64,000 nucleotides of DNA from Cellulophaga omnivescoria (lineage in GTDB: Bacteria; Bacteroidota; Bacteroidia; Flavobacteriales; Flavobacteriaceae), in the NCBI RefSeq assembly GCF_001999725.1, contig NZ_MDDP01000002.1:62001-126000 (forward strand), given 5' to 3'. The position numbers were made by a program, and so were the translations under genes. The number at the start of each line of letters is the position of its first letter. Position 1 is the stretch's first letter. Below the pieces are notes generated by a model. That model saw nothing but the letters and a program-made list of their open reading frames with translations. It was not told the origin of the DNA and did no database searches. This document shows positions 3,882 to 40,174 of the stretch, one piece after another.

Positions 3882-3965
3882 TTTCAGGTTGATTATATAG
3901 TTCTCCCAAAAATGATAATGTAATATAACTTTATTGTAAACTTAAAAACAAAGAAAGGTTAGCTT

Positions 3966-10465: not shown

Positions 10466-10495
10466 GGATACTTTATTAAAATTACAAACGATATA

Positions 10496-10532: not shown

Positions 10533-10653
10533 ACTTTTTATGACACGAATATATACTGATACAGGGCGAAAAAAAACTGAGTATTTCATCACTCTTAAAA
10601 ATTACATTACTTAGCATATATAACTACAATACAGAATTAAATTTTACATAAAA

Positions 10654-11907: not shown

Positions 11908-11935
11908 CCGTTATACTACATAAGTATATATAAAA

Positions 11936-12175: not shown

Positions 12176-12272
12176 TCTTTTATATTAGAGTTTTAAATGT
12201 AAGCAAGTTTTAAAAGATAATACTAGTAGTAACAGTGACTTATTTTGTCTTTATCTATTTTATAAAGACCCG

Positions 12273-13040: not shown

Positions 13041-13096
13041 ATAGTGGCAATCTAAAAATTAAAACGGGATCTAAACTAAAAAATAGCTAAAAAGAA

Positions 13097-13121
13097 AAAC
13101 CCCGTTTAAGTTACGGGGTTT
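13097..13121 (-). terminator. Rho-independent terminator after the SDR gene
   Basis: A 9-bp GC-rich stem (AAACCCCGT at 13097-13105 with its complement at 13113-13121) and 7-base loop. An A run to its left becomes the U tract on the minus strand. Confidence 0.82.
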
Positions 13122-13149
13122 AAATTTAAAAAAGTTTTTTACATAAAAA

Positions 13150-13863: not shown

Positions 13864-13909
13864 TTTATATTATTTATAATTATTTCTAAAATTAATAAGA
13901 AATTCTGTT

Positions 13910-22819: not shown

Positions 22820-25800
22820 TTAATTTGCTAGTAAAAGCTGACTATTAAGTATTTCCTTAATTTCTGGTTTACAACTACCACAACCCAAGCCTGCTCCTGT
22901 TTGCGAGCATAAGTTTGCAAAATTTGTACAACCATCTTTAATTGCGTCTGTAACATTACCTTCACCAACTTGGCTGCATGAACAAACTAATTTGCCTTTT
23001 AAAGGTGCTGTACTAGATGCTCCTCTTAGTAATTCATTTCGTTTTTCAGACAGTTCTATTTCCTCTTCAATTAAACGTTTAAATTCTGCAAATTCATTTT
23101 TATCACCCATTAAAATAGCTCCTTTTAATGTATCATTTTTAACTATGCATTTTTTATAAAAACGCTTACTAACATCCATTAAAATTATTTCTTCGTAACT
23201 ATTATCCTCTGCTGGCGAGTTTACCATTCCTATGCTACACAAGTCTAAATTTTCGAATTTTAAAATATTCATTAAAACTGAACCGTTATAAATACTACTG
23301 TAATCTCCTAAAATATAATTTGCTGCAATATCTGCCTGTTGTTCTGCTGCAGAGGTAATACCAAAAAGTGAGTTGTTAAACTCTGCTATTTCACCCAATG
23401 CAAATATAGATGGGTTACTTGTTTGCATATAAGAGTTTACTATAACACCACGCCTAGTTTTTAGTTTTGTTTGCTTTGCTAACTCTATATTTGGTCTAGT
23501 ACCTATGGCGTAAACTATAGCATTGCACTTTATGGTTTTTCCTGTTTTTAGATTTACCAAAATACTGTGACTTGTTGTTTTTTCATCAAAAACAGTACTT
23601 ACTTCATTATCAAAATATAAATTTATATCTCTTTCTAACACGTCTTGCGCTAATAACCTACTCGCAACATTGTCTAATTGACGCTCCATAAGTCTGGGCG
23701 CCCTTTGTATAATACTTATGTTTACATTAATTTTTTTTAAGGCCGCTGCTAGTTCTAATCCTAAGAGTCCGCCACCAACAATAACAACATGTTGTGCATT
23801 ATTAGGTAAACCTGTTTCTTGCAAGTAATGTTTTAACTTATCTGCATCCCCACGCTCTCTCATAGTAAACCTACCCGGTAAATTAATAGGCACATCACTA
23901 GGTACAAATGCTCTACTTCCGGTAGCCATTATTAACAAATTATAGCTATGTGTAACACCATTAGAATCTGTAACTTGTTGTTCTTTTTCATTTATGTTAA
24001 AAATTCCTATTCCTGCATGCAAAGTTATATTCAACTTTTTTAGCTCGCCCTTTTTTAGTTTTTCTAAAGATTGCCATGAGAGTTCATTACTCACATATTC
24101 TGGCAATAAAACTCTGTTGTAAAATGGATCTTTTTCTTTAGAGAAAACATGTAGCTCATCAACAGTATTTTTTTCTCTATAAGTTTGTATAAATCTATAT
24201 GCCGCAGCCCCTGCACCAATAACTATAATTTTTTGTTTGGGTTTACTATATTTTTCTACTTGTACGGCACAGTATTTAAAATCTGGTTCTTTAGATACAG
24301 GGTCTACAATATCATTAGTTAAATTATTAGCTCTACCAAAATCATTATTTAATATTTTACCCCAATGCATTGGTAAAAAAACTACTTGTTCTCTTATATC
24401 AAAATTTATAGTTACTTTAACCTGCACCTTGCCTCTTTTACTTTTTACTACAGCAATATCTCCTTCTTTTAGTTTTCTTAAAAAGGCATCTACTTTATTC
24501 ATTTCTAAATATGGCATAGGTATGTGTGTAAGTAAGCGTTTTACCTTACCTGTTTTTGTTCTGGTATGCCATTGGTCTCTTACCCTACCTGTATTTAAAA
24601 TTAGAGGATAGTCTACATTTGTTTCTTCAGATTGATTGTAAGTTTCTGAGGGAGCATTAAAATGTGCTTTTGTATCTGGAGTATTAAATACTAAATTATG
24701 AAATAAACGTGGCGTACCCGGATGGTTTTTGTGTGGCACAGGCCACTGAAAACTACCTTCCTCCTTTAGCCGTTTATAAGATAGGCCAGATATATCTATA
24801 CTTGTACCTTTAGTAAGCAAACAGTACTCATCGTAAACCTCGCTAGCATTAGTATAATTAAACCCAGAGTATCCCATTTCTTGCGCAAAACGCCATAATA
24901 TTTCTGCGTCTGGCAATGCTTCGCCTGGTGCATTTATAACTTTTGGTAGGTAACTAATTCGCCTTTCAGAATTTGTCATTGTACCTTCTTTCTCTAACCA
25001 ACCTGCAGCAGGTAAAAGTAGATCTGCAAATTTTGTGGTTTCAGAATTATGAGAAATATCTTGTACTACAACAAAGTTTGCTTTTTTTAATGCGCGTTCT
25101 ACTTTATTTACATTAGGCATACTTACCACAGGGTTTGTACAAATAATCCAAATTGCTTTTAATTTACCTTCATCTAAGGCATTAAACATTTCTATTGCGG
25201 TATAACCCGGCTTAGCCTGTATTTGTTTACCTCCCCAAAAATCTGACACTTCTTTTCTGTGTTCAGGATTATTCAAATCTTTATGTACCGCCAACAAATT
25301 TGCCATACCACCAACCTCACGACCTCCCATAGCATTGGGCTGTCCTGTTAACGAAAATGGGCCAGATCCTGGCTTGCCTATTTGCCCCGTTAGTAATGAT
25401 ATATTTAGTAATGCTACATTTTTAGAAACCCCAATTACACTTTGGTTAAGCCCCATTGTCCACATACTAATAAAGCCTTTTGCATTACCAATATATAGTG
25501 CTGCTTTTTTTATATCTTCTGCCTTTATACCACATTTTTTAGCCGCAGTAGTTAAGGTTAATTGAAAAGCACTTGCTTTACATGCTTCAAAATTTACGGT
25601 GTGCTTTTTAATAAAGTTTTTATCTGTTTTTTTCTTTTCTATAAGTACCCTAGCTATAGCATTAAAGAGAATTACATCTGTACCCGGTAAAATCTGTAAA
25701 TGTAAATCTGCAGAAGCACAAGTTTGTGTTTTTCTAGGGTCTACAACTATTATTTTTACATTAGGGTTTTCTTCTTTATGCTTTTCTAAACGCCTAAATA

Positions 25801-26350
25801 ATATTGGGTGACACCAAGCCGGGTTAGCTCCTGCAATTAAAAAGCAATCTGCCAATTCTATATCTGCATACGCAATTGGCACAGAATCTTCTCCCACTGT
25901 TTTTTTATAACCAACCACCGCAGAACTCATACACAAGCGTGAGTTGGTATCTATATTATTACTCCCAATAAACCCTTTTAGTAATTTATTAGCTAAATAA
26001 TATTCTTCTGTTAAGCACTGGCCAGAAACGTAAAAACCCACACTATCTGGTCCGTGTTTATCTATAATAGTTTTAAAAACAGCAGCCGCTCTTTTAAATG
26101 CATTATCCCATGTAACTTTTTGTAAAGGATGATTTTTACTCCATCGCATTTCTGGATACAAAATACGGTCTGTGGTATCTTGCGCAACATAATTAAGGTT
26201 TTTGCCTTTAGAACACAACATACCTTTGTTAACCGGATAATTTTCATTACCGGACACTGTTAATACACCTTTGGTATCTTTCTCTACTACTACTCCGCAA
26301 CCTACTCCGCAATAACTGCAAATAGTTTTATGTTTTGTATTTTTTTGCAT
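22820..26350 (-). CDS. nasA: Assimilatory nitrate reductase fused to FAD/NAD(P) reductase and BFD [2Fe-2S] domain
   Basis: A 1176-residue fusion. Residues ~8-50 hold the [4Fe-4S] motif C-x2-C-x3-C (CSYCGVGCG) and a fourth Cys in GMLCSKGKN. The molybdopterin catalytic and dinucleotide-binding domains follow to ~690 (LTGQPNAMGGREVGGMANLL, HWGKILNNDFGRANN). A two-Rossmann flavoprotein part (~700-1095) has IVIGAGAAAYRF and VVIVGGGLLGLELA. A C-terminal BFD domain has CSC and CGSC pairs. It reduces nitrate to nitrite in the cytoplasm. An in-frame ATG exists at 26380, but the promoter-like box at 26393-26400 would leave only ~6 bases of leader, so the ATG at 26350 is preferred. Confidence 0.93.
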   Translation of the reverse strand: MQKNTKHKTICSYCGVGCGVVVEKDTKGVLTVSGNENYPVNKGMLCSKGKNLNYVAQDTTDRILYPEMRWSKNHPLQKVTWDNAFKRAAAVFKTIIDKHGPDSVGFYVSGQCLTEEYYLANKLLKGFIGSNNIDTNSRLCMSSAVVGYKKTVGEDSVPIAYADIELADCFLIAGANPAWCHPILFRRLEKHKEENPNVKIIVVDPRKTQTCASADLHLQILPGTDVILFNAIARVLIEKKKTDKNFIKKHTVNFEACKASAFQLTLTTAAKKCGIKAEDIKKAALYIGNAKGFISMWTMGLNQSVIGVSKNVALLNISLLTGQIGKPGSGPFSLTGQPNAMGGREVGGMANLLAVHKDLNNPEHRKEVSDFWGGKQIQAKPGYTAIEMFNALDEGKLKAIWIICTNPVVSMPNVNKVERALKKANFVVVQDISHNSETTKFADLLLPAAGWLEKEGTMTNSERRISYLPKVINAPGEALPDAEILWRFAQEMGYSGFNYTNASEVYDEYCLLTKGTSIDISGLSYKRLKEEGSFQWPVPHKNHPGTPRLFHNLVFNTPDTKAHFNAPSETYNQSEETNVDYPLILNTGRVRDQWHTRTKTGKVKRLLTHIPMPYLEMNKVDAFLRKLKEGDIAVVKSKRGKVQVKVTINFDIREQVVFLPMHWGKILNNDFGRANNLTNDIVDPVSKEPDFKYCAVQVEKYSKPKQKIIVIGAGAAAYRFIQTYREKNTVDELHVFSKEKDPFYNRVLLPEYVSNELSWQSLEKLKKGELKKLNITLHAGIGIFNINEKEQQVTDSNGVTHSYNLLIMATGSRAFVPSDVPINLPGRFTMRERGDADKLKHYLQETGLPNNAQHVVIVGGGLLGLELAAALKKINVNISIIQRAPRLMERQLDNVASRLLAQDVLERDINLYFDNEVSTVFDEKTTSHSILVNLKTGKTIKCNAIVYAIGTRPNIELAKQTKLKTRRGVIVNSYMQTSNPSIFALGEIAEFNNSLFGITSAAEQQADIAANYILGDYSSIYNGSVLMNILKFENLDLCSIGMVNSPAEDNSYEEIILMDVSKRFYKKCIVKNDTLKGAILMGDKNEFAEFKRLIEEEIELSEKRNELLRGASSTAPLKGKLVCSCSQVGEGNVTDAIKDGCTNFANLCSQTGAGLGCGSCKPEIKEILNSQLLLAN

Positions 26351-26406
26351 AGCTCTAAATAACAGATGTAAAAACATCATTCTTTAACTATGGAAAGATA
26401 CAGAAT

Positions 26407-26422
26407 TACGTATTAATACGTA
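26407..26422 (-). promoter_or_regulatory. Candidate NarL-like operator at the nitrate reductase promoter
   Basis: A perfect 16-bp palindrome, TACGTATTAATACGTA, which is two TACGTAT heptamers in a 7-2-7 arrangement. On the minus strand a TATCTTTC box (26400-26393), one base off the TANNTTTG consensus, follows directly, placing the palindrome where a -33 element would be. The same element recurs at other nitrate-gene promoters in the window. Confidence 0.7.
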
Positions 26423-26533
26423 GTAGTGATTTAATAATAATATAGGGATGAAATTATTTATTCTATAAATAAACCTCTAAAAAATAAGAAGTTATATAGT
26501 TTACCCAAAACTACACTTAAAAAAGAGTATATT

Positions 26534-27205
26534 TTAAACCAAATTATACTGTTGTGCTTTTTTAGATAAATCTATTAAATTTTTTACTTCCATTTTACGC
26601 ATTAAATTAAACCTATGTGTTTCTACCGTACGTTTACTATTTTGTAGTTTTTCTGAAATTTGCTTGTTAGTTAAACCTGTTAACACAAGCTCCAATACCT
26701 GTAATTCTTTACTTGTAAGATCAAAAGGATTACTATTATTTTTAGAAGTTTTTACTGTTTCAGATACTGTTTTATTACCATTTAGCAAATTATTTACAAG
26801 TACATTAGAAATGTCTCCGCTAAAATATTTACCTCCTTGCTGCACAGTGCGTATTGCTTTTATAAACTCTACTTTACCTGTATCTTTTAGCAAATAACCA
26901 TTTGCTCCTGCTTTTACAGATTTAAGAATATATTCTTCCGAATCATGCATAGATAGTATTATGGCTTTTGTAGTGGTACCTTGTTTATTAAGTATTTCTA
27001 CGGCATCTATGCCATTCATTATTGGCATTCTAATATCTATAATTAAAAGATCTGGATTTTTTTCTTCTACAATCTCAATTGCTTCTTTACCGTTAGACAC
27101 CTCTGCAACCACAACCAAATCTTTTTCTTCTTCAAGCAAAGAACGTATTCCGTCTCTAACTAAAGAATGATCATCTGCCAATACAATACTTATAGTGCTA
27201 CTCAT
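26534..27205 (-). CDS. NarL/FixJ-type response regulator
   Basis: A 223-residue response regulator. Receiver domain ~1-120 has the acidic pair DD near 11-12, phospho-acceptor Asp57 (LLIIDIRMP), a Ser/Thr-type switch and Lys in LLKDTGK. The C-terminal LuxR-type HTH (~155-218) reads LTSKELQVLELVLTGLTNKQISEKLQNSKRTVETHRFNLMRKM. A TTG codon lies just upstream in frame, but the ATG at 27205 is the better start. It is flanked by nitrate genes and has its own promoter and operator. It is the likely partner of the NarX-like kinase at 38327. Confidence 0.93.
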   Translation of the reverse strand: MSSTISIVLADDHSLVRDGIRSLLEEEKDLVVVAEVSNGKEAIEIVEEKNPDLLIIDIRMPIMNGIDAVEILNKQGTTTKAIILSMHDSEEYILKSVKAGANGYLLKDTGKVEFIKAIRTVQQGGKYFSGDISNVLVNNLLNGNKTVSETVKTSKNNSNPFDLTSKELQVLELVLTGLTNKQISEKLQNSKRTVETHRFNLMRKMEVKNLIDLSKKAQQYNLV

Positions 27206-27222
27206 CAATCAAAATATTTTTA

Positions 27223-27257
27223 CAAATATAATTTAAAAATACGTAGTGACATACGTA
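27223..27257 (-). promoter_or_regulatory. Promoter and paired TACGTA element of the NarL-like regulator gene
   Basis: On the minus strand TATATTTG at 27230-27223 is a perfect -7 box. Two TACGTA half sites lie just upstream at 27240-27245 and 27252-27257, six bases apart, centred near -32. No -33 element is present, so activation by a bound regulator, possibly autoregulation, is plausible. Confidence 0.65.
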
Positions 27258-27284
27258 ATATACTTAGGCTATATTATAAAAAAA

Positions 27285-27308
27285 GTCGCCACATAATACT
27301 GTAGCGAC
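27285..27308 (-). terminator. Probable terminator of the nrt-porin operon
   Basis: A GTCGC/GCGAC stem with three more inner pairs around one mismatch. Seven As on the left side form a U tract on the minus strand. It lies between the porin stop and the regulator's promoter. Confidence 0.55.
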
Positions 27309-27333
27309 CAGGGAACAGTTATTTAATTGATGA

Positions 27334-28617
27334 TTATTTTGTTGTGTTTAAAAATTTAGGTTTAATAGTTAACATTGCCCAAGCCCAATTTTGACTTCCT
27401 GCAGATGCATCTTTGGTAGTTCCTTTTAACTCATACATACCATCGTTAGCAAACATTTGAGAATAACCAACTGCCAAACCATACCCTTTAAACTTTTTAG
27501 AAAAAACAAGGTCTAGCTCTGTGCCCAAAGATTTATCGCCACTTGCTAACTCTTGTTCTCCACTAAAATTTAACGCTTTTATCATAAGACTAGAGGTGTC
27601 ATTTAGTTTAAAATTAGCGCTAATATGTACATCTAATAAACCTACAGAATTAGCGTGGTTACCCACATAAAAATAATCCATAAAACCATTAAATTTATGG
27701 TTGGTTCCGTAAAGAGGAAAAAAAGCTCCTGTTTCACCAGCATCTGCGTCATTACCACTAATTAACTCAAAACCGGCACCTAGAGTAACCTTGTTAGATG
27801 TTTTATAATTTAAATCTAAACTTGCCAAATAAGCTCCTTTTACATCAATTTCTCCTTGTCTTTTTCCGGTTTGTAAAAACAAATTACTACTTACGCCTAG
27901 CTTCCCTTTTTTGTATGCTAAATGTGTACCAATGGTAACTAAACTACTTGTACCATCTGGAGTTGTAGCATCATCTTCATACTCCTGAAAACCATTATTT
28001 AACACTAACAAACTACCAGAAAAAGTGTCCCAACTTTGTTTAGCATATAAATACTGCATTGTTTTATAAGAGAAAAAGCCTGTGGTACTATATTCCGTTC
28101 CTACAGATGAAAAACCAGATAAATTTGCCTTATCTTGATTAAATGCGAGACCTACATCTAATAAAAAATTATCTTTTTTATACTTTAACAATGCAGCATC
28201 ATGATTACGTGCTTGTTGAGCCCAACCTACAGAACCTAATATTCTTTGATCGTCATAATCTATTGTTTGTCTTCCTATTTTTGTAGTAAACCCTTTTCCT
28301 AAATTTAACTCTCCCCAAGCTTCAAAAACAGCAAAAGAGTTATTGGCATCTGCAGGTAATAATTGTCTATTTTCTCCCCAAGTTAAAACATCTTGTAAAC
28401 TTAAGTAAAACTTGTAATTTTCTGTATTATATCCAAAATTTAAACGAGCCCTTGTTGCAACACCAAATCCAGCATCTGTATCTTCTGCAATAGGACTGCC
28501 AAACCCATGTCTGTACTCTGTTCTTGGTCTAAATTCACCATCTAATGTAAACTGTGCGAATGTATAATTAGCAATAAATAAAAAAAGGCATAGTATTAGG
28601 TATTGATATTTTTTCAT
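27334..28617 (-). CDS. Alginate-export-family outer-membrane porin, likely nitrate channel
   Basis: A 427-residue product with a signal peptide (YLILCLFLFIANYTFAQ). The mature protein alternates hydrophobic and polar residues as in a beta-barrel: FTLDGEFRPRTEYRHGF, LNFGYNTENYKFYLSLQDVLTWGE, and a C-terminal aromatic strand (NWAWAMLTIKPKF). This matches the alginate_export family, many of which are general anion porins. It is the last gene of the nrtABCD operon, 31 bases after nrtD, so its most likely role is letting nitrate or nitrite cross the outer membrane. That role is inferred. Confidence 0.85.
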   Translation of the reverse strand: MKKYQYLILCLFLFIANYTFAQFTLDGEFRPRTEYRHGFGSPIAEDTDAGFGVATRARLNFGYNTENYKFYLSLQDVLTWGENRQLLPADANNSFAVFEAWGELNLGKGFTTKIGRQTIDYDDQRILGSVGWAQQARNHDAALLKYKKDNFLLDVGLAFNQDKANLSGFSSVGTEYSTTGFFSYKTMQYLYAKQSWDTFSGSLLVLNNGFQEYEDDATTPDGTSSLVTIGTHLAYKKGKLGVSSNLFLQTGKRQGEIDVKGAYLASLDLNYKTSNKVTLGAGFELISGNDADAGETGAFFPLYGTNHKFNGFMDYFYVGNHANSVGLLDVHISANFKLNDTSSLMIKALNFSGEQELASGDKSLGTELDLVFSKKFKGYGLAVGYSQMFANDGMYELKGTTKDASAGSQNWAWAMLTIKPKFLNTTK

Positions 28618-28648
28618 AATCTATTTTTTATAGTGTTTTATATTAATT

Positions 28649-29476
28649 TTAGTGTTCTAAAAAATCTATTAAATGCTTTCTGCAAGCGTAGTAATCTTTG
28701 TGTTCTAAAACAGATTTTCTTGTTCTAGGTCTTTCAAAATCTACAGTTAGTACGTCTCCAATTTTTGCCCTTGGGCCACTAGTCATCATCACTACTCTGT
28801 CTGCTAAAAAAATAGCTTCATCTACATCATGAGTAATCATTACTGCTGTAATTTTCTCTTTGTTCCATATTTCTATTAAAATATCCTGAAGCTCTCCTCT
28901 TGTTAACGAATCTAACATTCCAAAAGGCTCATCTAACAACAATACTTTGGGCTTAATAGCAAATGCCCTTGCAATACCAACTCTTTGTTGCATACCTTGA
29001 GATAGCTCTGTTGCTTTTTTATTAAAAGCCCCATCTAAACCTACTTTGTGTAAATAATATTTGGCTATATCTACACGTTGTTTTTTAGGAATGTGAGGAA
29101 AAACTTGGTTTACACCTAATAAAACATTTTGCAAGGCTGTCATCCAAGGCATTAAACTTGGTGATTGAAAAATTACGCCTCTATCTGGACCAGGTCCTTT
29201 TACAGGGTTACCCAAAACAGATATGTTTCCGCCAGAAATAGAGTTTAAGCCAGCTATCATAGAAAGCATTGTTGTTTTTCCACAACCAGAATGCCCTATA
29301 ATTGTAACAAACTCCTCTTTCATTATTTGTAAATTTAAATTCTCTAATACCACGTAGTCTCCTTTTGGTGTTGGGTAAACCTTTTTTAAATTAATAAGGT
29401 CTAACATTACTTTAGAAGGGTAGTAAATTCCGTTTTCAAAGTTGGTATTGTCTGTTTTTGTAATAGTTGCACTCAT
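28649..29476 (-). CDS. nrtD: Nitrate ABC transporter ATP-binding protein NrtD-like
   Basis: A 275-residue ABC ATPase of the nitrate/taurine (NitT/TauT) class. Walker A is GHSGCGKTT (~58-66), the signature ELSQGMQQRVGIARA, Walker B KVLLLDEPFGMLD, and the H-loop THDVDEA. It lacks the C-terminal NrtA-like domain that cyanobacterial NrtC carries. It pairs with the ATPase at 29489, 12 bases upstream, as a heterodimer energising NrtB uptake of nitrate. Confidence 0.9.
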   Translation of the reverse strand: MSATITKTDNTNFENGIYYPSKVMLDLINLKKVYPTPKGDYVVLENLNLQIMKEEFVTIIGHSGCGKTTMLSMIAGLNSISGGNISVLGNPVKGPGPDRGVIFQSPSLMPWMTALQNVLLGVNQVFPHIPKKQRVDIAKYYLHKVGLDGAFNKKATELSQGMQQRVGIARAFAIKPKVLLLDEPFGMLDSLTRGELQDILIEIWNKEKITAVMITHDVDEAIFLADRVVMMTSGPRAKIGDVLTVDFERPRTRKSVLEHKDYYACRKHLIDFLEH

Positions 29477-29488
29477 TTTTCTATTTTT

Positions 29489-30334
29489 TTAAAATTGACC
29501 AACAAAACTTTTTGGCGTAGCATCTGGCAAGACATACTCTGTATTAGAAACGGACTTTCTGCTTTCTCCTATAGCCATTAAATAGGCAATAATTTTATTT
29601 CTAGTCTCTATATAGTTTATATTATCATTTAATTTTGTCTTGTCTCTTGGGCGCTCTATATCTATAATAAACTCTGGTCCCAATGTTGCTTTTGGCCCTG
29701 GTTTTAAAGGAATAATTCTATCTGCCATATAAATACCTTCATCAACATCATTTGTAATTAGCAAAGCAGTTCTTTTGTCTTTACTCCAAATATTTAATAT
29801 TTCATCTTGTAAATTGCCTCTGGTTAACGCATCTAAAGCCCCTAAAGGTTCATCCATAATTATCATTTCTGGTTTCATAGCCAATGCTCTAGCCACAGAG
29901 ACTCTCTGCCTCATTCCGCCAGACAATTCTTTTGGCCTTTTATCAATTGCGTGTGATAGGCCTACCATCTTTATAAAACTAACAACCCTTTCTTTAATTT
30001 CTGTTTTACTTTCTTTTGGAAAAGCCTCCTTAACAGCCATTGCAACATTCTGATACACTGTTAACCAAGGAAGTAGTGAGTAATTTTGAAAAATAACTCC
30101 ACGTTTGTGACTTGTGCCAACTACAGGTTCTCCCTTAAAAAGCACCTCTCCACTGGTTGGTTTTATTAAGCCATTAATTAAATTTACTAGTGTAGTTTTT
30201 CCGCTTCCAGTAAAACCTACAATAGCAACAAACTCCCCTTCTTCTATTTTTAAATTGATGTTAGAAAGTACCTCTGTACTATTATTTCCTTGACCGTATG
30301 TTTTACACACATTTTTTAATTCTAAATACGCCAT
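29489..30334 (-). CDS. nrtC: Nitrate ABC transporter ATP-binding protein NrtC-like
   Basis: A 281-residue ABC ATPase. Walker A GFTGSGKTT lies near 40-48, the signature is ELSGGMRQRVSVARA, and Walker B is EMIIMDEPLGALD. The H-loop region reads LLITNDVDEGI, with Asn in place of the usual switch His (ITND rather than ITHD), so one of the two ATP sites may be weakened and the partner at 28649, which keeps ITHD, may carry hydrolysis. About 25 C-terminal residues extend past the ATPase core without forming an NrtA-like domain. Eighteen bases separate it from nrtB. Confidence 0.9.
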   Translation of the reverse strand: MAYLELKNVCKTYGQGNNSTEVLSNINLKIEEGEFVAIVGFTGSGKTTLVNLINGLIKPTSGEVLFKGEPVVGTSHKRGVIFQNYSLLPWLTVYQNVAMAVKEAFPKESKTEIKERVVSFIKMVGLSHAIDKRPKELSGGMRQRVSVARALAMKPEMIIMDEPLGALDALTRGNLQDEILNIWSKDKRTALLITNDVDEGIYMADRIIPLKPGPKATLGPEFIIDIERPRDKTKLNDNINYIETRNKIIAYLMAIGESRKSVSNTEYVLPDATPKSFVGQF

Positions 30335-30352
30335 AGTGCTTGATTTTATAAA

Positions 30353-31453
30353 TTAAATGCCCTCGTTTTTATTAAAAGACACCATTTGTTGAATGGTTAG
30401 CATTAACCTATCTAACAAAAAGCCTATAATGCCAATAACAAACATTGCCACTATAATTTTAGCGTTAGAATCGTTTGCTCCGTTTTGAAATTCTTCCCAA
30501 ACAAACAAACCTAAACCTGGACTTTGAGCCAGTAACTCTATAGCAATTAGAACCATCCAGGCAACTGATAGTGTAATTCTAAGTCCAGTAAATATTAACG
30601 GTAATGAAGAAGGTAAAATAACTTTAAATACTTTTTGAAAAGTTCCTAGCTTTAAAACTTTAGCTACATTTATATAGTCTTTATCTACAGAAGAAACACC
30701 CATTGCGGTGTTAACTAAAGTTGCCCACATTGCGCACAAACCAACACTAACAAAAGAAATTACAAATGCATTATCTGAGCTGGCTCCTATATATAATGTT
30801 TTTACAATCATAAAAACTAACAAATACCAAACTACTGGAGACACAGGTTTAAATATTTGAATAAACCAATTAAATGCACTTCTAAGAGACGGACTTAATC
30901 CTATAATAACACCTATAGGAACTGCTATAATAAGTGCAAGCAAAAATCCTGCAAAAACAGTTTTTATACTAGTTAAAACAATATCTATAAAGGAGGCTCT
31001 ACCGGTATAAACTATTGCCTTTTTACCTTGTGCAATTAACTTAGCATTAGTAGACTCCATTTTTAAATTAAAGGCATCTTTTTTTGCTTGAATTAAATGA
31101 TGATCTGCAATTAAAGACATAAATGAAGCCCATACCTGAGTTGGTGATGGTAAAGTATTTGGCTGACACCTACTTTCTCCTGAAGCAATACAAGCCCTTT
31201 CTGCATCCGCAGCAGCCGGACCTTGTTCTTCCAATGCCTTTTCAATTCTATAGGCAGCTTCTTTATTGTACAATGCCTTAGAACCAAGATGCCACAGCCC
31301 CAAAAACAAAAGGATAGAAACAATAGTTATTGCTGTTTTTTTTAATGATTTTGATACCGCATCTTTTTCAAACTTAGATTTAACAATTGAAGCTATTTGC
31401 TTAAAAAAAGCAAAACCAGAGTGCTGTTTCTTTAATGTAATTTCTTGTTTCAT
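30353..31453 (-). CDS. nrtB: Nitrate ABC transporter permease NrtB-like
   Basis: A 366-residue inner-membrane permease of the NitT/TauT class. An N-terminal membrane helix is at ~44-62, followed by a ~100-residue periplasmic insert that is longer than in most family members and includes NTLPSPTQVW. Five or more further helices carry the BPD_transp_1 core, with the EAA-like segment around FKVILPSSLPLIFTGLRITLS. The last helices end in LDRLMLTIQQMVSFNK. It forms the channel for nitrate delivered by NrtA. Translation starts at the ATG at 31453, 30 bases after nrtA. Confidence 0.93.
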   Translation of the reverse strand: MKQEITLKKQHSGFAFFKQIASIVKSKFEKDAVSKSLKKTAITIVSILLFLGLWHLGSKALYNKEAAYRIEKALEEQGPAAADAERACIASGESRCQPNTLPSPTQVWASFMSLIADHHLIQAKKDAFNLKMESTNAKLIAQGKKAIVYTGRASFIDIVLTSIKTVFAGFLLALIIAVPIGVIIGLSPSLRSAFNWFIQIFKPVSPVVWYLLVFMIVKTLYIGASSDNAFVISFVSVGLCAMWATLVNTAMGVSSVDKDYINVAKVLKLGTFQKVFKVILPSSLPLIFTGLRITLSVAWMVLIAIELLAQSPGLGLFVWEEFQNGANDSNAKIIVAMFVIGIIGFLLDRLMLTIQQMVSFNKNEGI

Positions 31454-31483
31454 CGTATATTCTTTTTTGGGTTGTAGTGGTAG

Positions 31484-32854
31484 TTAATCTTTATTACCTA
31501 TGGCAAAACTGTTTATATAACCAATAGGATCTTTTGCATCATAAAGAGTACCGTCTATAAAATCTGTTGTTGCTGGCTTATAACCATCTGTTTCTGGTAT
31601 ATCTTCCTTTGGTATTTTGCCTTCGGCAACCAATAAGTCTGCAGCTTTTCTCCAAACATCTGGGCGGTAAATTTCTTTTATTGTTTCCTTGTACCAAGCG
31701 GCAGGTTTTGCTTCTGAAATTTGTCCCCATCGTCTCATTTGTGTTAAAAACCAAATTCCGTCAGAATAAAAAGGATATGTAGCATTGTATTTGTAAAACA
31801 CATTAAAATCTGGCATAGAACGTTTGTCTCCTTTTTCAAACTCAAAAGTACCCGTCATAGAATTTGCTAATACTTCTTCTGGAGCACCTACATATTGTGA
31901 CATAGATAATATTTTAACGGCCTCTTTTCTGTTGTTAGGATTATCTAACCACTTACCAGCTCTTATTAAAGCTTTTGTAACCGCTACTGCAGTATTAGGG
32001 TTTTCTTCTACAAACTTTTTTGTCATTACAAATACTTTTTCTGGGTTATTTTTCCATATGTCATAATTTGTAACAACTGGTACACCTATACCTTTAAAAA
32101 CTGCTTGTTGGTTCCAAGGTTCGCCCACACAATAGCCATAAATTGTTCCAGATTCTAAAGTAGCCGGCATTTGTGGCGGTGGTGTTACAGATAGTAAAAC
32201 TTCAGCATCAATTTGTCCCTGCACATTATCTGCCGTATACATACCTGGGTGTATACCCGCTGCAGCCAACCAATACCTTATTTCGTAATTGTGAGTAGAT
32301 ACAGGAAAAACCATCCCCATTTTAAATGGTTTTCCGCTGTTTTTATACTCAGCTACTACTGGTTTTAAAGCATCTGCCTTAATTGGATGTATTGTTTTTC
32401 CGTTATCATCTAAAGGCACATTGGGTTTCATTTTTGCCCAAACATCATTAGATACTGTTATTCCGTTTCCATTTAAATCCATAGAAAACGGAGTAACCAA
32501 TTTTGCACGCCTACCAAAGCCTACTCCTGCTGCTATTGGTTGTCCTGCTAGCATATGAGAACCATCTAACTGGCCATCTATAACACGGTCTAAAACATTT
32601 TTCCAGTTAGACTGTGCCTCAACAGAAACAAAAAGTCCTTCCTCCTCAAAAAAGCCTTTTTCTTTAGCTATAGCTAAAGGAGCCATATCTGTTAATTTTA
32701 TAAATCCAAAAGTTAATTGTGGTTTTTCAATTTCAAATGCCGATGCTGCTACATCTTCTGTAGTAGTTTTTTCTTTTTTTTCTTTACTGCCACAAGACCA
32801 AAGAAAAACTAGAGCCATTAAATAAAGAGGTACATTTTTTACTGTATTTTTCAT
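31484..32854 (-). CDS. nrtA: Nitrate-binding lipoprotein NrtA-like
   Basis: A 456-residue periplasmic solute-binding protein. The N-terminus has a lipoprotein signal ending LVFLWSCGS (Cys at ~21) and a Lys/Glu/Thr-rich tether. The fold is NrtA/Cmp[57 protein letters not shown], and [10 protein letters not shown] near the C-terminus. It captures nitrate or nitrite for NrtBCD. It is the first gene of the operon and is preceded by two palindromic TACGTA-type elements. Bicarbonate binding, as in CmpA, is less likely given the context. Confidence 0.92.
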
Positions 32855-32875
32855 AGTTAATTATTTAGAGTGTTC

Positions 32876-32891
32876 TACGTATTAATACTTA
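32876..32891 (-). promoter_or_regulatory. Degenerate copy of the nitrate-regulon palindrome near nrtA
   Basis: TACGTATTAATACTTA matches the 16-bp palindrome at the nitrate reductase promoter at 15 of 16 positions. It lies just downstream of the predicted nrtA transcription start, 22 bases before the start codon, a position compatible with repression or wrapping. Confidence 0.6.
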
Positions 32892-32897
32892 TTAAAA

Positions 32898-32916
32898 CAA
32901 AAGTATACGTATACTT
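32898..32916 (-). promoter_or_regulatory. nrtA promoter box overlapping a 16-bp palindrome
   Basis: On the minus strand TACTTTTG (32905-32898) fits the -7 consensus. It overlaps the perfect palindrome AAGTATACGTATACTT (32901-32916), which contains a central TACGTA. Confidence 0.65.
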
Positions 32917-33031
32917 TCTAAAATTTTATGAAATAAAACAGAACAAAACATTCTTTTACACCATTAAAAAACCTGTATTAACGCATAAAAAAGAGATAAA
33001 AGCCTAATAACAAACCAGTTACAAATAAAAA

Positions 33032-33055
33032 AAGTTGCGTATATATACGCAACTT
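33032..33055 (-). terminator. Terminator after the FNR-like regulator gene
   Basis: A 24-bp perfect palindrome (AAGTTGCGTATA and its mirror complement). A run of As to the left acts as the U tract on the minus strand. Confidence 0.8.
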
Positions 33056-33079
33056 ACTACTTAATACTACCTATTTATT

Positions 33080-33805
33080 TTATAAATCTAAATAGTAATT
33101 ATGCTCAGAAATTTCTTTTTTAAGTAAAGCAATGTTAGTTATTCCTATTTTTTTTCCCTTCGTAAAAATTAAACTTTCTTTTTTTAGGGCAGAAAAAACT
33201 CTTATTACTTGTTCTTCTGTAGTACCAGCATAATCTGCATATTCTCGTCTACTTAGTTGCAAGTTTAAAAAACCATTATAATCTTTAAATTTTCTATGTA
33301 TGTAAAGCAAGCTGTCTACAACACGTTCTCTAACTGTCATTTGTGAAATGGTTTTTAGTTTTGCCTCACTCCTATTAAGTTCGTTTGCATAAAAAAGCAT
33401 CATATCATAAGTAAATGTTGCATTACTTTTTAATTTGGTCTGCAAACTATCTTTAGAATAATAACACAAAATACTATCCTCTAAAGCCATTGCTCCTATA
33501 GAGTAATACTCTTCTGTTCCAAAACCACGGTGACCTATTATTTCTCCTTCTTTAGCAAATCTCACAATTTGTTCTTTACCGTTTAATCCTGTTCTATACA
33601 CTTTTACTTTACCTTTTAAAATAAAAAAAAGACCATTAACCGGTGCTCCTTCTATTATAAACTGCTGTCCTTTTTTACAACTAATTTCTGTTTTTAAGAC
33701 AGAAAAAAAATCATCCCTTTCTGCTAATACACTTCTTTTAACCAAACAATCTGCATTCATACAACTTTTACAAGAAGTAGCTAAAAATGTATACTTATTA
33801 GGCAT
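33080..33805 (-). CDS. FNR-like Crp/Fnr regulator with a four-cysteine Fe-S signature
   Basis: A 241-residue regulator. The N-terminal motif SCKSCMNADC gives Cys12, Cys15 and Cys20, and a fourth Cys114 lies in the beta roll (SILCYY). Spacing and offset match the four [4Fe-4S] ligands of E. coli FNR (20, 23, 29, 122) almost exactly, so oxygen or NO sensing is plausible. A further Cys43 is also present. The C-terminal HTH reads LSRREYADYAGTTEEQVIRVFSALK. Its recognition helix keeps Glu and Arg but has Ile where FNR has Ser, so the half site may differ from TTGAT. It lies between nrtA and cobA with its own terminator. Confidence 0.9.
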   Translation of the reverse strand: MPNKYTFLATSCKSCMNADCLVKRSVLAERDDFFSVLKTEISCKKGQQFIIEGAPVNGLFFILKGKVKVYRTGLNGKEQIVRFAKEGEIIGHRGFGTEEYYSIGAMALEDSILCYYSKDSLQTKLKSNATFTYDMMLFYANELNRSEAKLKTISQMTVRERVVDSLLYIHRKFKDYNGFLNLQLSRREYADYAGTTEEQVIRVFSALKKESLIFTKGKKIGITNIALLKKEISEHNYYLDL

Positions 33806-33862
33806 AATAATTATTTTAGATTTAAAATTAGAGGCAAAAACTAGATATTTAATACACTTAGC

Positions 33863-34636
33863 TTAGAGGCTAGAATGAAGCACTCTTTGTAATTCTTCTT
33901 CAAAAAAAGAAGGATGCTCTGCTACTACATCACCAATAACTATTACACCAGGAAGGGCAATATTGATATTGTTTTTAACGGTATTACAACTAGACAAGGT
34001 GCCTGTTATGCAGGTTTCTTTACCTAAAGTACCGTTTTGTATTATAGCAAAAGGCGTTAACTTACTTCTATGTTTTGCAACTTCTTGAGCTATTTTAATA
34101 AACTTACGTACTCCCATAAGTATTACCAATGTTGCAGAAGATTTTGCAGCTAAAATTAAATCATTAGAAAATGATCCATCTTTTTTTGTGGCTGTCATTA
34201 CCCAAAAGCTACTGCTTACACCCCTACGAGTTACTGGTATACCTTGGCTGGCGGGCACTGCTATTGCACTACTTATCCCAGGAACAACAGTTACTGGTAT
34301 ACCAAAAGATTCTACGTATTCTATTTCTTCACTAGCCCTACCAAACACAAAAGGATCTCCTCCCTTTAAACGCACGGCGTGCCCGTATTTATATGCGCTT
34401 TCTACTATAAGTTTATTTATGTCACCTTGTAATAAAGAATGTTTTCCACAACGCTTACCTACGTATATTTTAGGTATAGAATTATCAATTTCACTAAGTA
34501 AATCTATGCTTACTAGTGCATCATATAAAATTACATCAGCTTGCTGCAAAACCTTAATTCCCCTAAGGGTAATAAGGTCTACACCGCCCGGCCCAGCACC
34601 TACTAAACTTACTTTAGGATTTTTTGACTGCATCAT
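33863..34636 (-). CDS. cobA: Uroporphyrinogen-III C-methyltransferase
   Basis: A 257-residue SUMT that methylates uroporphyrinogen III twice to precorrin-2, the first step to siroheme for NirB. Motifs: VSLVGAGPGGVDLITLRG at the N-terminus, YVGKRCGKHS, RLKGGDPFVFGR, and VPGISSAIAVPASQGIPVTRRG. No fused CysG oxidase/chelatase domain is present, so a separate precorrin-2 dehydrogenase/ferrochelatase is needed elsewhere. It is divergent from nirB across a shared operator region and is probably induced with it. Confidence 0.95.
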   Translation of the reverse strand: MMQSKNPKVSLVGAGPGGVDLITLRGIKVLQQADVILYDALVSIDLLSEIDNSIPKIYVGKRCGKHSLLQGDINKLIVESAYKYGHAVRLKGGDPFVFGRASEEIEYVESFGIPVTVVPGISSAIAVPASQGIPVTRRGVSSSFWVMTATKKDGSFSNDLILAAKSSATLVILMGVRKFIKIAQEVAKHRSKLTPFAIIQNGTLGKETCITGTLSSCNTVKNNINIALPGVIVIGDVVAEHPSFFEEELQRVLHSSL

Positions 34637-34676
34637 AATATATAATTATTAAGGTGAAAAATTATTAATACAACAA

Positions 34677-34688
34677 CAAAACTACGTA
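34677..34688 (-). promoter_or_regulatory. cobA promoter box with adjacent TACGTA element
   Basis: On the minus strand TAGTTTTG (34684-34677) fits the -7 consensus, and a TACGTA half site (34688-34683) overlaps its upstream edge. The same TACGTA-into-box arrangement occurs at nirB. Confidence 0.6.
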
Positions 34689-34715
34689 TTTATTTTGATA
34701 AAAACAGATAAAATA

Positions 34716-34737
34716 TACGTAATAATACGTATTTTTG
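34716..34737 (+). promoter_or_regulatory. nirB promoter with paired TACGTA operator
   Basis: Two TACGTA elements at 34716-34721 and 34726-34731 are separated by four bases, the same spacing as at the nitrate reductase promoter. The second overlaps a TATTTTTG -7 box (34730-34737). No -33 TTG is present. A further TACGTA touches the start codon (34760-34765). Confidence 0.7.
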
Positions 34738-34764
34738 TTATTGTAATCTCATAATCATGTACGT

Positions 34765-37278
34765 ATGAAAACCGTAATTGTAGTAGGAAATGGAATGGTA
34801 GGCTATAAGTTTTGCGAAAAATTTGTGGCCAAAGAAACAAATAAAGATTTTAAGCTTATTGTTTTTGGCGATGAGCCAAGACCCGCTTATGACCGTGTAC
34901 ATTTAAGTGAGTTTTTTGAAAATAAAGATGCAAAGGCATTAGAAATGGCTCCTGCAGAATGGTATATAAAAAATAACATTGAACTATACACCAACGAACG
35001 CATTGCAGATATTAACCGACAAGAGAAAACAATTACCACTGCTAAAAATAGAGATTTCACCTATGATTATCTTGTTTTAGCCACAGGATCAGCTGCATTT
35101 GTACCTCCTATTAAAGGGGTTGAGAAAGAAGGTGTTTTTGTTTACCGAACAATTGAAGATTTAGAAGGGATGCTAGCGTATGCTGCTAAATTAAAATCTA
35201 CCAAATCTAATGCAAAAGCTGCGGTTTTAGGAGGCGGATTATTAGGTCTTGAGGCTGGAAAAGCTGTTATGGATATGGGCTTAGAACCTCATATAGTTGA
35301 GTTTGCTCCAAAATTAATGCCAAGACAATTAGATAGTAGAAGCAGCCAAGTACTACAATTAAAATTAGAATCTATTGGTTTACATATACACCTTGGCAAA
35401 GCTACCAACCAAATACTAGGAGATAAAGTTATTACCGGAATGGAGTTTGGAGAAGATGATGTTTTAGATGTAGATATGCTAATAATATCTGCTGGCATTA
35501 GACCAAGAGATGAGTTAGGAAAAGCTTGTGGATTAGAAATAGGGGTGCGTGGCGGCATAGTAGTTAACAACAAAATGCAAACTTCTGATGAAAACATATA
35601 TGCCATTGGAGAAATTGCCTTGTACAACCAAATGATATACGGCCTTGTTGCCCCTGGCTATGAGATGGCTACTGTTGCTGTAGACCAAATAATAGGTAAT
35701 ACTAACAATATTATGTCTAAAAGTATAGATATGTCTACCAAATTAAAATTAATTGGTGTAGATGTTGCCAGCTTTGGAGATCCGTTTATGCCTGCAACTA
35801 AAGGTCATTCTGTTATTTTTGAAAATAAAACACAACATTTATACAAAAGAATAAATGTAAGTCTTGATGGCAAAAAATTACTTGGCGGAATTTTAGTTGG
35901 CGACGCTACTGATTATAGTATGCTACATCAAATATATTTAAATGGTATGCCAATTCCTTCAGATCCTTCTCAATTAATATTACCTGCCGGAGATGGCACT
36001 GCCTCCTTTGGTAGCGCTATGGATTTGCCAGATACTGCGGTTGTTTGTTCTTGTGAAGCCGTAACTAAAGGTCAAGTTTGTTGCTCTGTAAAAGATGATG
36101 GAAATGAAACTGTAAAAGATGTTGCCAAAGCTACCAAAGCAACAACTGGTTGTGGCGGTTGTAAACCTATGGTAACAGATTTAGTAAATGAAACTTTAAA
36201 ATCTTTAGGCAAAGTTGTAAAAGAACGTATTTGTGAGCATTTTGATTACTCTAGGCAGGAGTTATATGATATTGTAAAGATGAAAAATATTAAAGATTAT
36301 GATGAGCTTTTAGATACTCACGGAAAAGGCAATGGTTGCGAAGTTTGTAAGCCTTTAGCGGCGTCATTATTTGCAAGTATATTTAATGAAACAGCTAACA
36401 AACAAGATACAATACAGGACTCTAATGACAGGTATTTAGCTAACATACAGCGTAACGGAACCTACTCTGTTGTGCCACGTGTTGCTGGCGGAGAAATATC
36501 TCCAAAACAAATGATTGCTATGGGCAGAATTGCTCAAAAATATGATTTATACACCAAAATTACAGGCGGACAACGTATAGATATGTTTGGAGCAAAACTA
36601 CATGAACTTCCACTTATTTGGGAAGAGTTAATTGCAGAAGGCTTTGAAACCGGACAAGCTTATGGTAAATCTTTACGTACCGTAAAAAGCTGTGTAGGAT
36701 CTACTTGGTGCAGATATGGCATGGATGAAAGTGTAAGTTTTGCCATTGAAATAGAAAACAGATATAAAGGCATACGTTCTCCTCATAAATTTAAAGGTGG
36801 CGTATCTGGTTGTATTAGAGAATGTGCAGAAGCACGCGGTAAAGATTTTGGTTTTATTGCTGTAGAGGGCGGCTGGAATATTTACATATGCGGTAACGGT
36901 GGCGCAACTCCTAAGCACGCTGTTTTATTGGCAGAAAAAGTAGATAAAAAAACGGCTATTACGTATGTAGACAGGTTTTTAATGTACTATATACAAACTG
37001 CACAACCATTAATGCGTACTGCGGCTTGGCTAGACAAGTTAGAAGGTGGTATAGATTACGTAAAGGACGTAGTTATTAATGATTGCCTTGGCATTGTAGA
37101 TCAGTTAGACAAGGATATGCAACATTTGGTAGACACATACAAATGCGAATGGAAAGAGGCTGTAGAAACTCCTGAAATTAGAGCCAAGTACACACATTTT
37201 GTAAATTCTACAGAAGAAGATGAAAATATAGAGTTTGTAGCTCTTAGAGACCAAAAAATGCCAGCTCCTTGGGTGTAA
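34765..37278 (+). CDS. nirB: Nitrite reductase [NAD(P)H] large subunit NirB
   Basis: An 837-residue siroheme nitrite reductase, normal length. FAD and NAD(P) Rossmann motifs: VVGNGMVGYKFCEKF near residue 5 and AAVLGGGLLGLEAGKA near 152. A BFD [2Fe-2S] domain follows (VVCSCEAVTKGQ ... TGCGGCKP), then a second Cys cluster region (ERICEHF ... GCEVCKP). The siroheme/4Fe-4S region has KSCVGSTWCRYG and SGCIRECAEARGKD. It reduces nitrite to ammonium in the cytoplasm. nirD follows 29 bases later. Confidence 0.97.
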   Translation: MKTVIVVGNGMVGYKFCEKFVAKETNKDFKLIVFGDEPRPAYDRVHLSEFFENKDAKALEMAPAEWYIKNNIELYTNERIADINRQEKTITTAKNRDFTYDYLVLATGSAAFVPPIKGVEKEGVFVYRTIEDLEGMLAYAAKLKSTKSNAKAAVLGGGLLGLEAGKAVMDMGLEPHIVEFAPKLMPRQLDSRSSQVLQLKLESIGLHIHLGKATNQILGDKVITGMEFGEDDVLDVDMLIISAGIRPRDELGKACGLEIGVRGGIVVNNKMQTSDENIYAIGEIALYNQMIYGLVAPGYEMATVAVDQIIGNTNNIMSKSIDMSTKLKLIGVDVASFGDPFMPATKGHSVIFENKTQHLYKRINVSLDGKKLLGGILVGDATDYSMLHQIYLNGMPIPSDPSQLILPAGDGTASFGSAMDLPDTAVVCSCEAVTKGQVCCSVKDDGNETVKDVAKATKATTGCGGCKPMVTDLVNETLKSLGKVVKERICEHFDYSRQELYDIVKMKNIKDYDELLDTHGKGNGCEVCKPLAASLFASIFNETANKQDTIQDSNDRYLANIQRNGTYSVVPRVAGGEISPKQMIAMGRIAQKYDLYTKITGGQRIDMFGAKLHELPLIWEELIAEGFETGQAYGKSLRTVKSCVGSTWCRYGMDESVSFAIEIENRYKGIRSPHKFKGGVSGCIRECAEARGKDFGFIAVEGGWNIYICGNGGATPKHAVLLAEKVDKKTAITYVDRFLMYYIQTAQPLMRTAAWLDKLEGGIDYVKDVVINDCLGIVDQLDKDMQHLVDTYKCEWKEAVETPEIRAKYTHFVNSTEEDENIEFVALRDQKMPAPWV

Positions 37279-38326: not shown

Positions 38327-40174
38327 ATGAGTCATAAAAAACTTGAAAAATCTTTAGATAATACTACATTTTTAAGAATTAGAAAATGGTATTTACTAGC
38401 GTTATTAGCTATTGCTTTTTCAATTGTGTTTTCTCAGGTGTTAATACAAATGCATTTAAATTCCCAATTAAACGACTCTAGAGTTATAAATGTAGCTGGC
38501 AGACAACGGGCATATAGCCAAAAATTAGTAAAAGATATTTTACTATTACAAAGAGCAACTCTAAAAAAAGAAAGAGATACAGTTCTAAAAAACACAAAAA
38601 AAACATTAGATGTATGGCGTATTTCTCATAAAGCCCTACAATTTGGTAATGACTCTATGGGTATACCAAAAGAAGACAACAAAGCCATTTTAGCGTTGCT
38701 GCAAAAAATTACACCACATCACAATGCAATGATTAAGGCTGCAGAACGCACTATTGTTTATAATACTACTGACGGATTTAAAGATTCTATTGGCTTAAAA
38801 GAAAATATAAATATCATTTTAAAAAATGAAAAAATATTTTTAAACCTAATGGATACTATTGTAAATAAGTATGATAGTATTAGTAAAACACAACTTGAAA
38901 AATTAAAGCAAAAAGAGCATTTATTAGTAGCCTTTTCTTTACTAATTCTTTTATTAGAGATCCTATTTATTTTTAGACCACTGTCTATACAAATTAGAAA
39001 CACCATAAGTAAACTATTAAAAAGTAAAATTGAATCTGAAGAAAACACTTTAAAAATAGAACAGCTTTACCAAGAAAAACAAAACTCCCTGCAAGAACTG
39101 CAAGAGCTTAACTTTGTTATAGACAATGCTGCACTGTTTGCTAGTATTAAAAATAATGAAAGTGTAGTTTTTATAAGTAAAAAATTTCAGGAGCTTTTGG
39201 GTTGTAGCACACAAGATTTAGCAAAACCATTATCTGAAATACTTACAACAAATGAAGGTCAACAACAGTATTTAAAAGAGGTTTTAAAAAGTAACAGAAA
39301 AAATATTAGAAACGAAGAAATAAAAATAAGAACAAAGAAAGAGCAAGACATTTGGTTAGATATGTCTATAATTCCGCTCCATAATTCTTCAAAAAAGCAA
39401 AATATTTTAATTCTATGTTCTGATATTACCGAGCGTATAGAAAATCAGCAAAAACTAGAACAACTAACCAAGCAAAGTTTTGAAGACAAAATTTTGCAGA
39501 GAAAACTACAAGCCAGTCTTATTGTTGAAGGGCAAGAAGAAGAGCGCAAACGTATAGCAAAAGATATACATGATGGTATTGGACAAATGCTAACAGCTCT
39601 TAAGTTTAATATTGAATCTATTAATTTAGAGAACAAAGATAAAACAAAGGAAAAAATAGCCTATTTAAAATCACTTTGCACAGACTTAATAAAGGGCGTA
39701 CGCACAGCTACATTTAACCTTACTCCACCGGAGCTTAAGGACCACGGTATTTTTCCTGCCTTGCAAAAAATGACTACAGAACTGTCTAAACTAACCGGGA
39801 AAAATATACTTTTTGAAAACAAAACAGAAAAAAACATTAGGTTTAGTTCCTTAGCAGAAACTAACATTTATAGGGTTGCACAAGAAGCAATAAACAATGC
39901 TATTAAATATGCTAACGCCAATTATATTTTATTAAGTATAAATTACAACCAAAATACACTAAGCGTTTTAATTGATGATGACGGTAATGGTTTTGATGAT
40001 TCCATTTTAAACAAAACACCTAAAAATAATAGCGAAGGTGGTATGGGATTATTTTATATGAAAGAACGTATAAGCTATATTAACGGCAGACTTTTTATTA
40101 ACTCCACACCTGGTAAAGGAACAAGAGTAACTATAAATTACAAACCCGAAAAAACTACTAAGCAACAACCATAA
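38327..40174 (+). CDS. NarX-like sensor histidine kinase with PilJ-type nitrate/nitrite sensing domain
   Basis: A 615-residue membrane kinase. TM1 is at ~21-42 and TM2 at ~198-220, enclosing a periplasmic PilJ/NarX-type helical domain. Its first helix carries VINVAGRQRAYSQKLVKD (Arg59, Arg61), which resembles the NarX P-box in which an Arg binds nitrate. A PAS domain follows at ~255-370, then a HisKA_3 dimerisation domain with phospho-His415 (RIAKDIHDGIGQ) and an HATPase_c domain (NAIKYA, DDDGNGFD, GGMGLFYMKER). It belongs to the NarX/NreB class and should phosphorylate a NarL-type partner, probably the one at 26534. Confidence 0.92.
   Translation: MSHKKLEKSLDNTTFLRIRKWYLLALLAIAFSIVFSQVLIQMHLNSQLNDSRVINVAGRQRAYSQKLVKDILLLQRATLKKERDTVLKNTKKTLDVWRISHKALQFGNDSMGIPKEDNKAILALLQKITPHHNAMIKAAERTIVYNTTDGFKDSIGLKENINIILKNEKIFLNLMDTIVNKYDSISKTQLEKLKQKEHLLVAFSLLILLLEILFIFRPLSIQIRNTISKLLKSKIESEENTLKIEQLYQEKQNSLQELQELNFVIDNAALFASIKNNESVVFISKKFQELLGCSTQDLAKPLSEILTTNEGQQQYLKEVLKSNRKNIRNEEIKIRTKKEQDIWLDMSIIPLHNSSKKQNILILCSDITERIENQQKLEQLTKQSFEDKILQRKLQASLIVEGQEEERKRIAKDIHDGIGQMLTALKFNIESINLENKDKTKEKIAYLKSLCTDLIKGVRTATFNLTPPELKDHGIFPALQKMTTELSKLTGKNILFENKTEKNIRFSSLAETNIYRVAQEAINNAIKYANANYILLSINYNQNTLSVLIDDDGNGFDDSILNKTPKNNSEGGMGLFYMKERISYINGRLFINSTPGKGTRVTINYKPEKTTKQQP

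Follow-up and report, generated by a model that had tools for sequence, protein, structure and literature searches.

A conserved candidate operator for the response regulator NarRR at the nitrate assimilation promoters of Cellulophaga omnivescoria and its relatives

Introduction

Through which DNA element, and by which protein, are the nitrate genes of Cellulophaga omnivescoria brought under common control? The question is raised by a stretch of 64,000 nucleotides (assembly GCF_001999725.1, contig NZ_MDDP01000002.1, positions 62,001 to 126,000; hereafter the window) that carries a nitrate assimilation cluster with nasA, a LuxR-type response regulator, a porin gene, nrt genes, an FNR-like regulator, cobA, nirB, nirD and a PilJ-type sensor kinase (Table 1). 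Marine flavobacteria are important degraders of algal material, and no described transcriptional code for their nitrate use was found in the literature searched. An original prediction, made from this DNA alone, saw paired TACGTA boxes at five promoters as a candidate regulon of NarL type. The response regulator and kinase are named here after narRR and narHK, the known nitrate-sensing two-component system of Bacteroidetes (PMC8199190). Conservation in relatives strongly supports a shared regulon over the nitrate promoters and, at a probability of roughly three in four as judged from sequence comparison, the boxes are operators of NarRR, which would be paired with the PilJ-type nitrate sensor kinase NarHK.

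Results

Paired boxes and their conservation

The window contains 33 copies of the word TACGTA where dinucleotide shuffles average 12.0, a ratio of about 2.8, so single boxes inside genes carry little weight. Pairs of boxes 2-8 base pairs (bp) apart occur three times (at 26407, 27240 and 34716), in each case in a nitrate-gene control region as had been predicted, and not once in 100 shuffles; the whole genome (3.8 Mb) has four strict pairs, the fourth lying inside an open frame on another contig. The near copy ahead of nrtA, TACGTATTAATACTTA, and the palindrome centred on TACGTA upstream of the same gene are likewise present as described. cobA does share the nirB control region, and it has in addition a half-site of its own that the prediction had missed. 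A further TACGTA at 34760-34765 overlaps the nirB start codon, and TACGT-ATG is also seen in several relatives.

Conservation was assessed at 80 loci, from the best 80 of 193 relatives found with the FNR-like protein, where the cluster genes were mapped; promoter counts cover 200 bp upstream, with near-duplicates thinned, and include exact matches only. The enrichment anticipated for orthologous promoters is found at nirB, nrtA, cobA, the FNR-like gene, nasA and narL (the gene of NarRR) with the broad motif TA[A/C]GTA-N4-TAC[G/T]TA, which lies upstream of nirB in 16/16, nrtA in 66/66, cobA in 13/13 and the FNR-like gene in 49/77 relatives. As nirB and cobA mostly share one intergenic region, their counts overlap. 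In the same relatives the motif is absent upstream of narX (0/28), nirD (0/24), nrtB (0/64) and the porin gene (0/65; 0/181 in all), the reversed pattern has no exact match in any promoter set, and the simulated expectation of exact matches is at most 0.035 per promoter set. None of the approximately 78 TACGTA pairs listed in relatives falls inside a mapped gene, unmapped open frames not having been checked. Of the six matches to the broad motif in the window's own genome, three are outside the cluster and at no evident promoter: two closely follow open frames and one is within another (the names uvrB and maf were given by eye).

In some relatives an MFS transporter gene resembling narK, named by eye, has its own TACGTA pair (L006, 8451 and 8525-9931; L015, 3231 and 3297-4712), and the regulon would therefore be wider than five promoters; the window has no narK-like MFS gene between cobA and the FNR-like gene. 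At five loci (L125, L127, L128, L129 and L161) three half-sites follow in a row with 10-bp phasing, which gives overlapping candidate NarRR sites.

Site geometry

The half-sites in the exact matches comprise 195 copies of TAAGTA and 141 of TACGTA. When all other bases are fixed, only A (117) and C (60) occur at left position 3, and only T (84) and G (93) at the corresponding right position. The spacer is 4 bp in 164 cases, and every other length from 0 to 12 is found in 0-4 cases; the pair with six-base spacing proposed for narL is really there, and its spacing is rare, accounting for only four of the cases counted. Sites of NarL are inverted repeats of TACYYMT heptamers with a 2-bp spacer (7-2-7; PMC4886647, PMC7419079), and the original prediction had read the nasA box in this way. 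That reading is rejected on heptamer positions 3 and 4 and on the spacer statistics: position 3, which is C for NarL, is A in 117/177 left and 84/177 right halves, position 4 is G where the consensus wants C or T, and the inner GTA...TAC is constant at 4-bp spacing. The 7-2-7 appearance arises because TACGTA is its own reverse complement, and caution is due in calling NarL-type sites by eye from self-complementary words. Given that A often takes the place of the outer C, that G is the fourth base and that the inner GTA...TAC does not vary, the recognised element would face outward, and the layout, as read from the site statistics, is 7-4-7 and not the 7-2-7 of NarL.

Heptamers arranged tail to tail in a 7-4-7 site are described for SsrB (PMC2837388), and for FixJ a SELEX class, GTAMGTAG, is given together with the 16-bp site of fixK, TAAGTAATTTCCCTTA (PMC4999443). 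The half-site TAMGTA is contained in this FixJ class, and the site length of 16 bp is likewise that of the fixK site. With a half-site that fits FixJ and a spacing that fits SsrB, the boxes fall into a FixJ/SsrB-like class, as defined by half-site and spacing.

The candidate binder

The original prediction left the binder open between the NarL-like and the FNR-like regulator, and the distribution of the two proteins favours the former. Of the family genomes sampled, all 55 that have nrtA or the FNR-like gene contain a strong NarRR match (E <= 1.3e-67), and further homologs appear only from E 9.5e-47 on. An FNR-like ortholog (E <= 1e-60) is absent from 6/54 nrtA genomes, all six of which have sites near nrtA and nirB and partly near nasA or narL; the FNR-like gene is thus dispensable for the sites, and its protein was rejected as the binder of the boxes. 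Genome-wide, in counts taken regardless of relatedness, 40 NarRR-positive genomes contain 283 sites against 123 of the reversed pattern, whereas 40 NarRR-negative genomes contain 94 against 93 and show no overall excess. In G059, one of the NarRR-negative genomes, the motif spacers mostly contain G+C, unlike those of nitrate promoters.

The putative recognition helix of NarRR is well conserved. In 38 NarRR-coding loci, a set in which the window's own gene is present more than once, 33 variants of the helix occur, and all of them keep KRT, E, HRFN and M[KR]K, although identity to the window NarRR falls to 51% among matches. Two genomes from outside the family, with loci of 44 and 48% GC, have both a similar helix and the sites. 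A nirBD-linked regulator with the helix RTVDNHRANMM is accompanied by no site, although this is one case (G537); no site is present either at five other loci, whose regulators are more distant and unlinked to nitrate genes. The nirB-cobA region of G537 (L160, 14169-14190) carries direct repeats of TACTTA instead of the palindrome. For the DNA-binding domain of NarRR alone the nearest PDB structures are EsrB, SsrB, 1yio (which we take to be StyR) and FixJ, NarL ranking lower. Together these observations point to NarRR as the best candidate for binding the sites.

Promoter layout and the FNR-like regulator

The -7 element has been mapped at -12 to -5 in F. psychrophilum (PMC9723704), and all start sites given here are predicted from this placement. 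The boxes had been thought to abut or replace the -33 element. Instead, at nirB, at cobA and, less clearly, at nasA the last TA of the box is also part of a -7 element of the TAnnTTTG type, and the main box of nrtA lies downstream of the -7 element. A TTG at -33 occurs in 10/138 of these promoters and in 9/68 other promoters of the loci; as this test failed to separate the two sets, a loss of -33 is not claimed. At nirB the start of the site precedes that of the -7 element by exactly 14 bp in 16/16 relatives, and the same offset is found in 40/49 promoters of the FNR-like gene with a site (41 of which have a box) and at nasA in 6/13 relatives (8 with a box). At narL the site precedes the -7 start by 22-25 bp in 11/13 relatives, and at nrtA it follows by 13-18 bp in 65/66.

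The layout of nrtA varies with the FNR-like regulator. In a second set the -7 element is upstream of the NarRR site in 25/25 genomes with the FNR-like gene, whereas this order was seen in none of the six genomes without it: the site is upstream of the -7 element at an offset of 14 in three and of 26 in one, and the other two have no recognisable nrtA -7 box. A palindrome of FNR type, ATG-N8-CAT, stands 36 bp before the nrtA -7 element in 53/65 relatives, which centres it at -41.5 of the predicted start, the position of an FNR class II site. Over the 80 loci this spacing occurs in 84 cases, other spacings from 26 to 49 reaching at most 8 each; of the 84 cases, 23 are not at nrtA, two of which were inspected and lie upstream of the porin gene. 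In the second set 19/25 genomes that have the FNR-like gene carry the palindrome at nrtA, and none was found there in the six genomes lacking the gene. The linked FNR-like protein would be its best reader. The protein has the FNR cysteines, with C12, C15 and C20 in 104/104 covered loci and C114, presumably equivalent to a position near FNR C122, in 106/108 (loci, not species), and it scores below the NCBIfam Fnr cut-off (71.4 against 228 bits). Its closest match in the genome scan is from Cellulophaga baltica, at 79% identity. In L131 and L132, from two genomes with two FNR-like paralogs, the region upstream of nrtA contains a GTGAATTCAC-like or GTGAATATGCAC sequence and no NarRR site.

Genes and elements of the locus

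Table 1. Genes, candidate sites and promoter elements of the nitrate cluster (positions in the window)
Feature	Position	Strand	Remark
nasA	22820-26380	-	target gene
-7-like element of nasA, TAATTCTG	26401-26408	-	weak; shares TA with site; offset 14 in 6/13 relatives with site
NarRR site of nasA, TACGTATTAATACGTA	26407-26422	.	
NarRR	26534-27208	-	LuxR-type response regulator; predicted binder
-7-like element of narL, TATATTTG	27223-27230	-	
narL pair, TACGTAGTGACATACGTA	27240-27257	.	6-bp spacer; unusual spacing
nrtA	31484-32854	-	target gene; followed by permease and ATPase genes
NarRR site of nrtA	32876-32891	.	past -7 element; predicted at about +3 to +18
-7-like element of nrtA, TACTTTTG	32898-32905	-	
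Half-site TACGTA at nrtA	32906-32911	.	directly upstream of -7 element; TACkTA in relatives' consensus
FNR-type palindrome of nrtA, CTG-N8-CAT	32928-32941	-	starts 36 bp before -7 start; centred at -41.5
FNR-like regulator	33080-33805	-	CX2CX4C and further conserved cysteines
cobA	33863-34636	-	target gene
-7-like element of cobA, TAGTTTTG	34677-34684	-	
cobA half-site	34683-34688	.	overlaps cobA -7-like element
NarRR site of nirB, TACGTAATAATACGTA	34716-34731	.	16/16 relatives
-7 element of nirB, TATTTTTG	34730-34737	+	shares TA with site; offset 14 in 16/16
nirB	34765-37278	+	target gene
NarHK	38327-40174	+	sensor kinase; PilJ, PAS, HisKA_3, HATPase_c

Fused to the C-terminus of NasA are a NirB-like flavin reductase and a BFD [2Fe-2S] domain, and the gene that follows (21372-22808) encodes a NIR_SIR_ferr protein with a C-terminal rubredoxin domain. 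The only other genome of the genus that was searched (G203) has, at the thresholds applied, neither nrtA nor the FNR-like gene nor NarRR, and the cluster is therefore patchy. In the relative L007 the FNR-like gene adjoins genes for iron-sulfur, NrfD-like membrane and cytochrome-like proteins, as judged by eye (7236-14480), which suggests a dissimilatory link.

Discussion

Proposed mechanism and its alternatives

In the proposed mechanism NarHK would sense nitrate and signal to NarRR, a dimer of which would read the broad motif with half-site centres 10 bp apart and the TAC[G/T]TA halves outward. NarRR may activate where the position of its site is fixed against the -7 element, as it is at nirB, at some nasA promoters and, in relatives, at the FNR-like gene. 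The narL site lies about one helical turn further upstream than the nirB-type position, and contact with polymerase is argued from the fixed offset and from this one-turn shift. At nrtA the FNR-like protein would activate from the -41.5 palindrome, and the NarRR site just past the predicted start would restrain. A fuller picture, in which NarRR activates from between -33 and -7 by touching polymerase, lineages with the FNR-like regulator have rewired nrtA as an AND-type gate for nitrate and oxygen while others keep the upstream NarRR site alone, and the FNR-like gene stands under NarRR in a cascade shaped like FixLJ-FixK, is put forward tentatively, at somewhat less than even odds.

An origin of the boxes in chance, AT-rich repeats or terminator hairpins might draw on the over-representation of TACGTA in the window and on pairs that relatives have some 40-65 bp past the FNR-like gene, which were rejected as operators and several of which lie, by eye, in longer terminator-like palindromes; it can practically be dismissed, as the shuffles yield no pairs and the conservation is confined to particular promoters and spares those of narX, nirD, nrtB and the porin. 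A true enterobacterial NarL-type site would agree with the link of the response regulator to nitrate and with NarL as its best PDB match over the full length, and TACGTAT-TA-ATACGTA can be read that way, yet it is very improbable given the bases at positions 3 and 4, a recognition helix of TVETHRF against TVKVHVK in NarL, and NarRR scores that miss the NCBIfam equivalog cut-offs of both NarL (148.5 against 250 bits) and NarP (142.5 against 343 bits). Binding of the boxes by the FNR-like regulator, with the site at its own gene serving autoregulation, is improbable as well. Crp/FNR sites have a G 5 bp from the dyad, as does GTA-N4-TAC, a Crp/FNR dimer would match the palindrome in spacing, and the gene is linked and in many relatives preceded by a site, but the six nrtA genomes without an ortholog keep the sites and it is a different palindrome, ATG-N8-CAT, that was not found at their nrtA promoters.

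NarRR might also bind as a repressor, keeping RNA polymerase from the -7 element and from the nrtA start until the signal releases it. Such a role would suit a site that overlaps the -7 element, as at nirB and at the FNR-like gene, or that lies downstream of it in a loose position (13 to 18 bp), as at nrtA, and the fixed spacing elsewhere could partly be an economy of the shared TA. Repression is nevertheless judged rather unlikely, since the offset of 14 at every nirB promoter and at 40/41 boxed promoters of the FNR-like gene suggests polymerase contact, the narL position is about one helical turn away, and nitrate-stimulated repression of nitrate uptake would make little sense.

Several observations weigh against NarRR as a conserved activator reading these boxes. 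Sites between -33 and -7 or past the start are commoner for a repressor than for an activator. The motif is only partly present upstream of nasA and narL (13/24 relatives each), the window's own narL pair is one of the rare departures from the 4-bp spacer, and one exact match lies inside nirB (L161). Some NarRR-negative genomes are rich in sites (nine each in G029 and G059, eight in G028 and seven in G045), and 3/7 genomes with a divergent FNR-like protein (G127, G002 and G237) lack a site within 260 bp upstream of nrtA. Full-length NarRR has NarL as its best PDB match, and the binder could instead be an unlinked regulator that is present wherever NarRR is.

Comparison with known systems

The outcome is an exact predicted operator whose candidate binder is named, a candidate operator for a second, FNR-like regulator, and promoter layouts that vary according to whether the latter is present; because operator, binder and layouts are specified, each point is testable by gel shift or deletion. 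No printed operator or regulon of this kind in Bacteroidota was found in the literature searched, supplements and subscription papers being outside the search. The sensor and regulator pair is already known, and the operator and regulon are apparently new. Like narHK/narRR, the system in the window has a kinase of nitrate-sensor type with a PilJ hit and a PAS domain, without a HAMP or GAF match in the domain search, beside nitrate genes; the accessible text of PMC8199190 describes narHK/narRR by sensor architecture and gene order and gives no DNA site or regulon.

The E. coli NarL/NarP regulon is similar in its nitrate-linked LuxR-type response regulator, and the outward half-site TACTTAT fits TACYYMT, but its 7-2-7 sites and its recognition helix differ from those found here, where the promoters are of the Bacteroidota -7 type. 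SsrB shares the tail-to-tail heptamers, the 4-bp spacer and a related recognition helix, TVETHRMNMMRKL, and differs in its consensus, ACmTTA against TAC[G/T]TA, and in an unrelated regulon. In the rhizobial FixLJ-FixK cascade, as here, a TAMGTA half-site is used and the response regulator site lies upstream of a Crp/FNR-family gene. FixL is oxygen-sensing, whereas the sensor of the present system is of nitrate type and the target regulator carries FNR-type cysteines.

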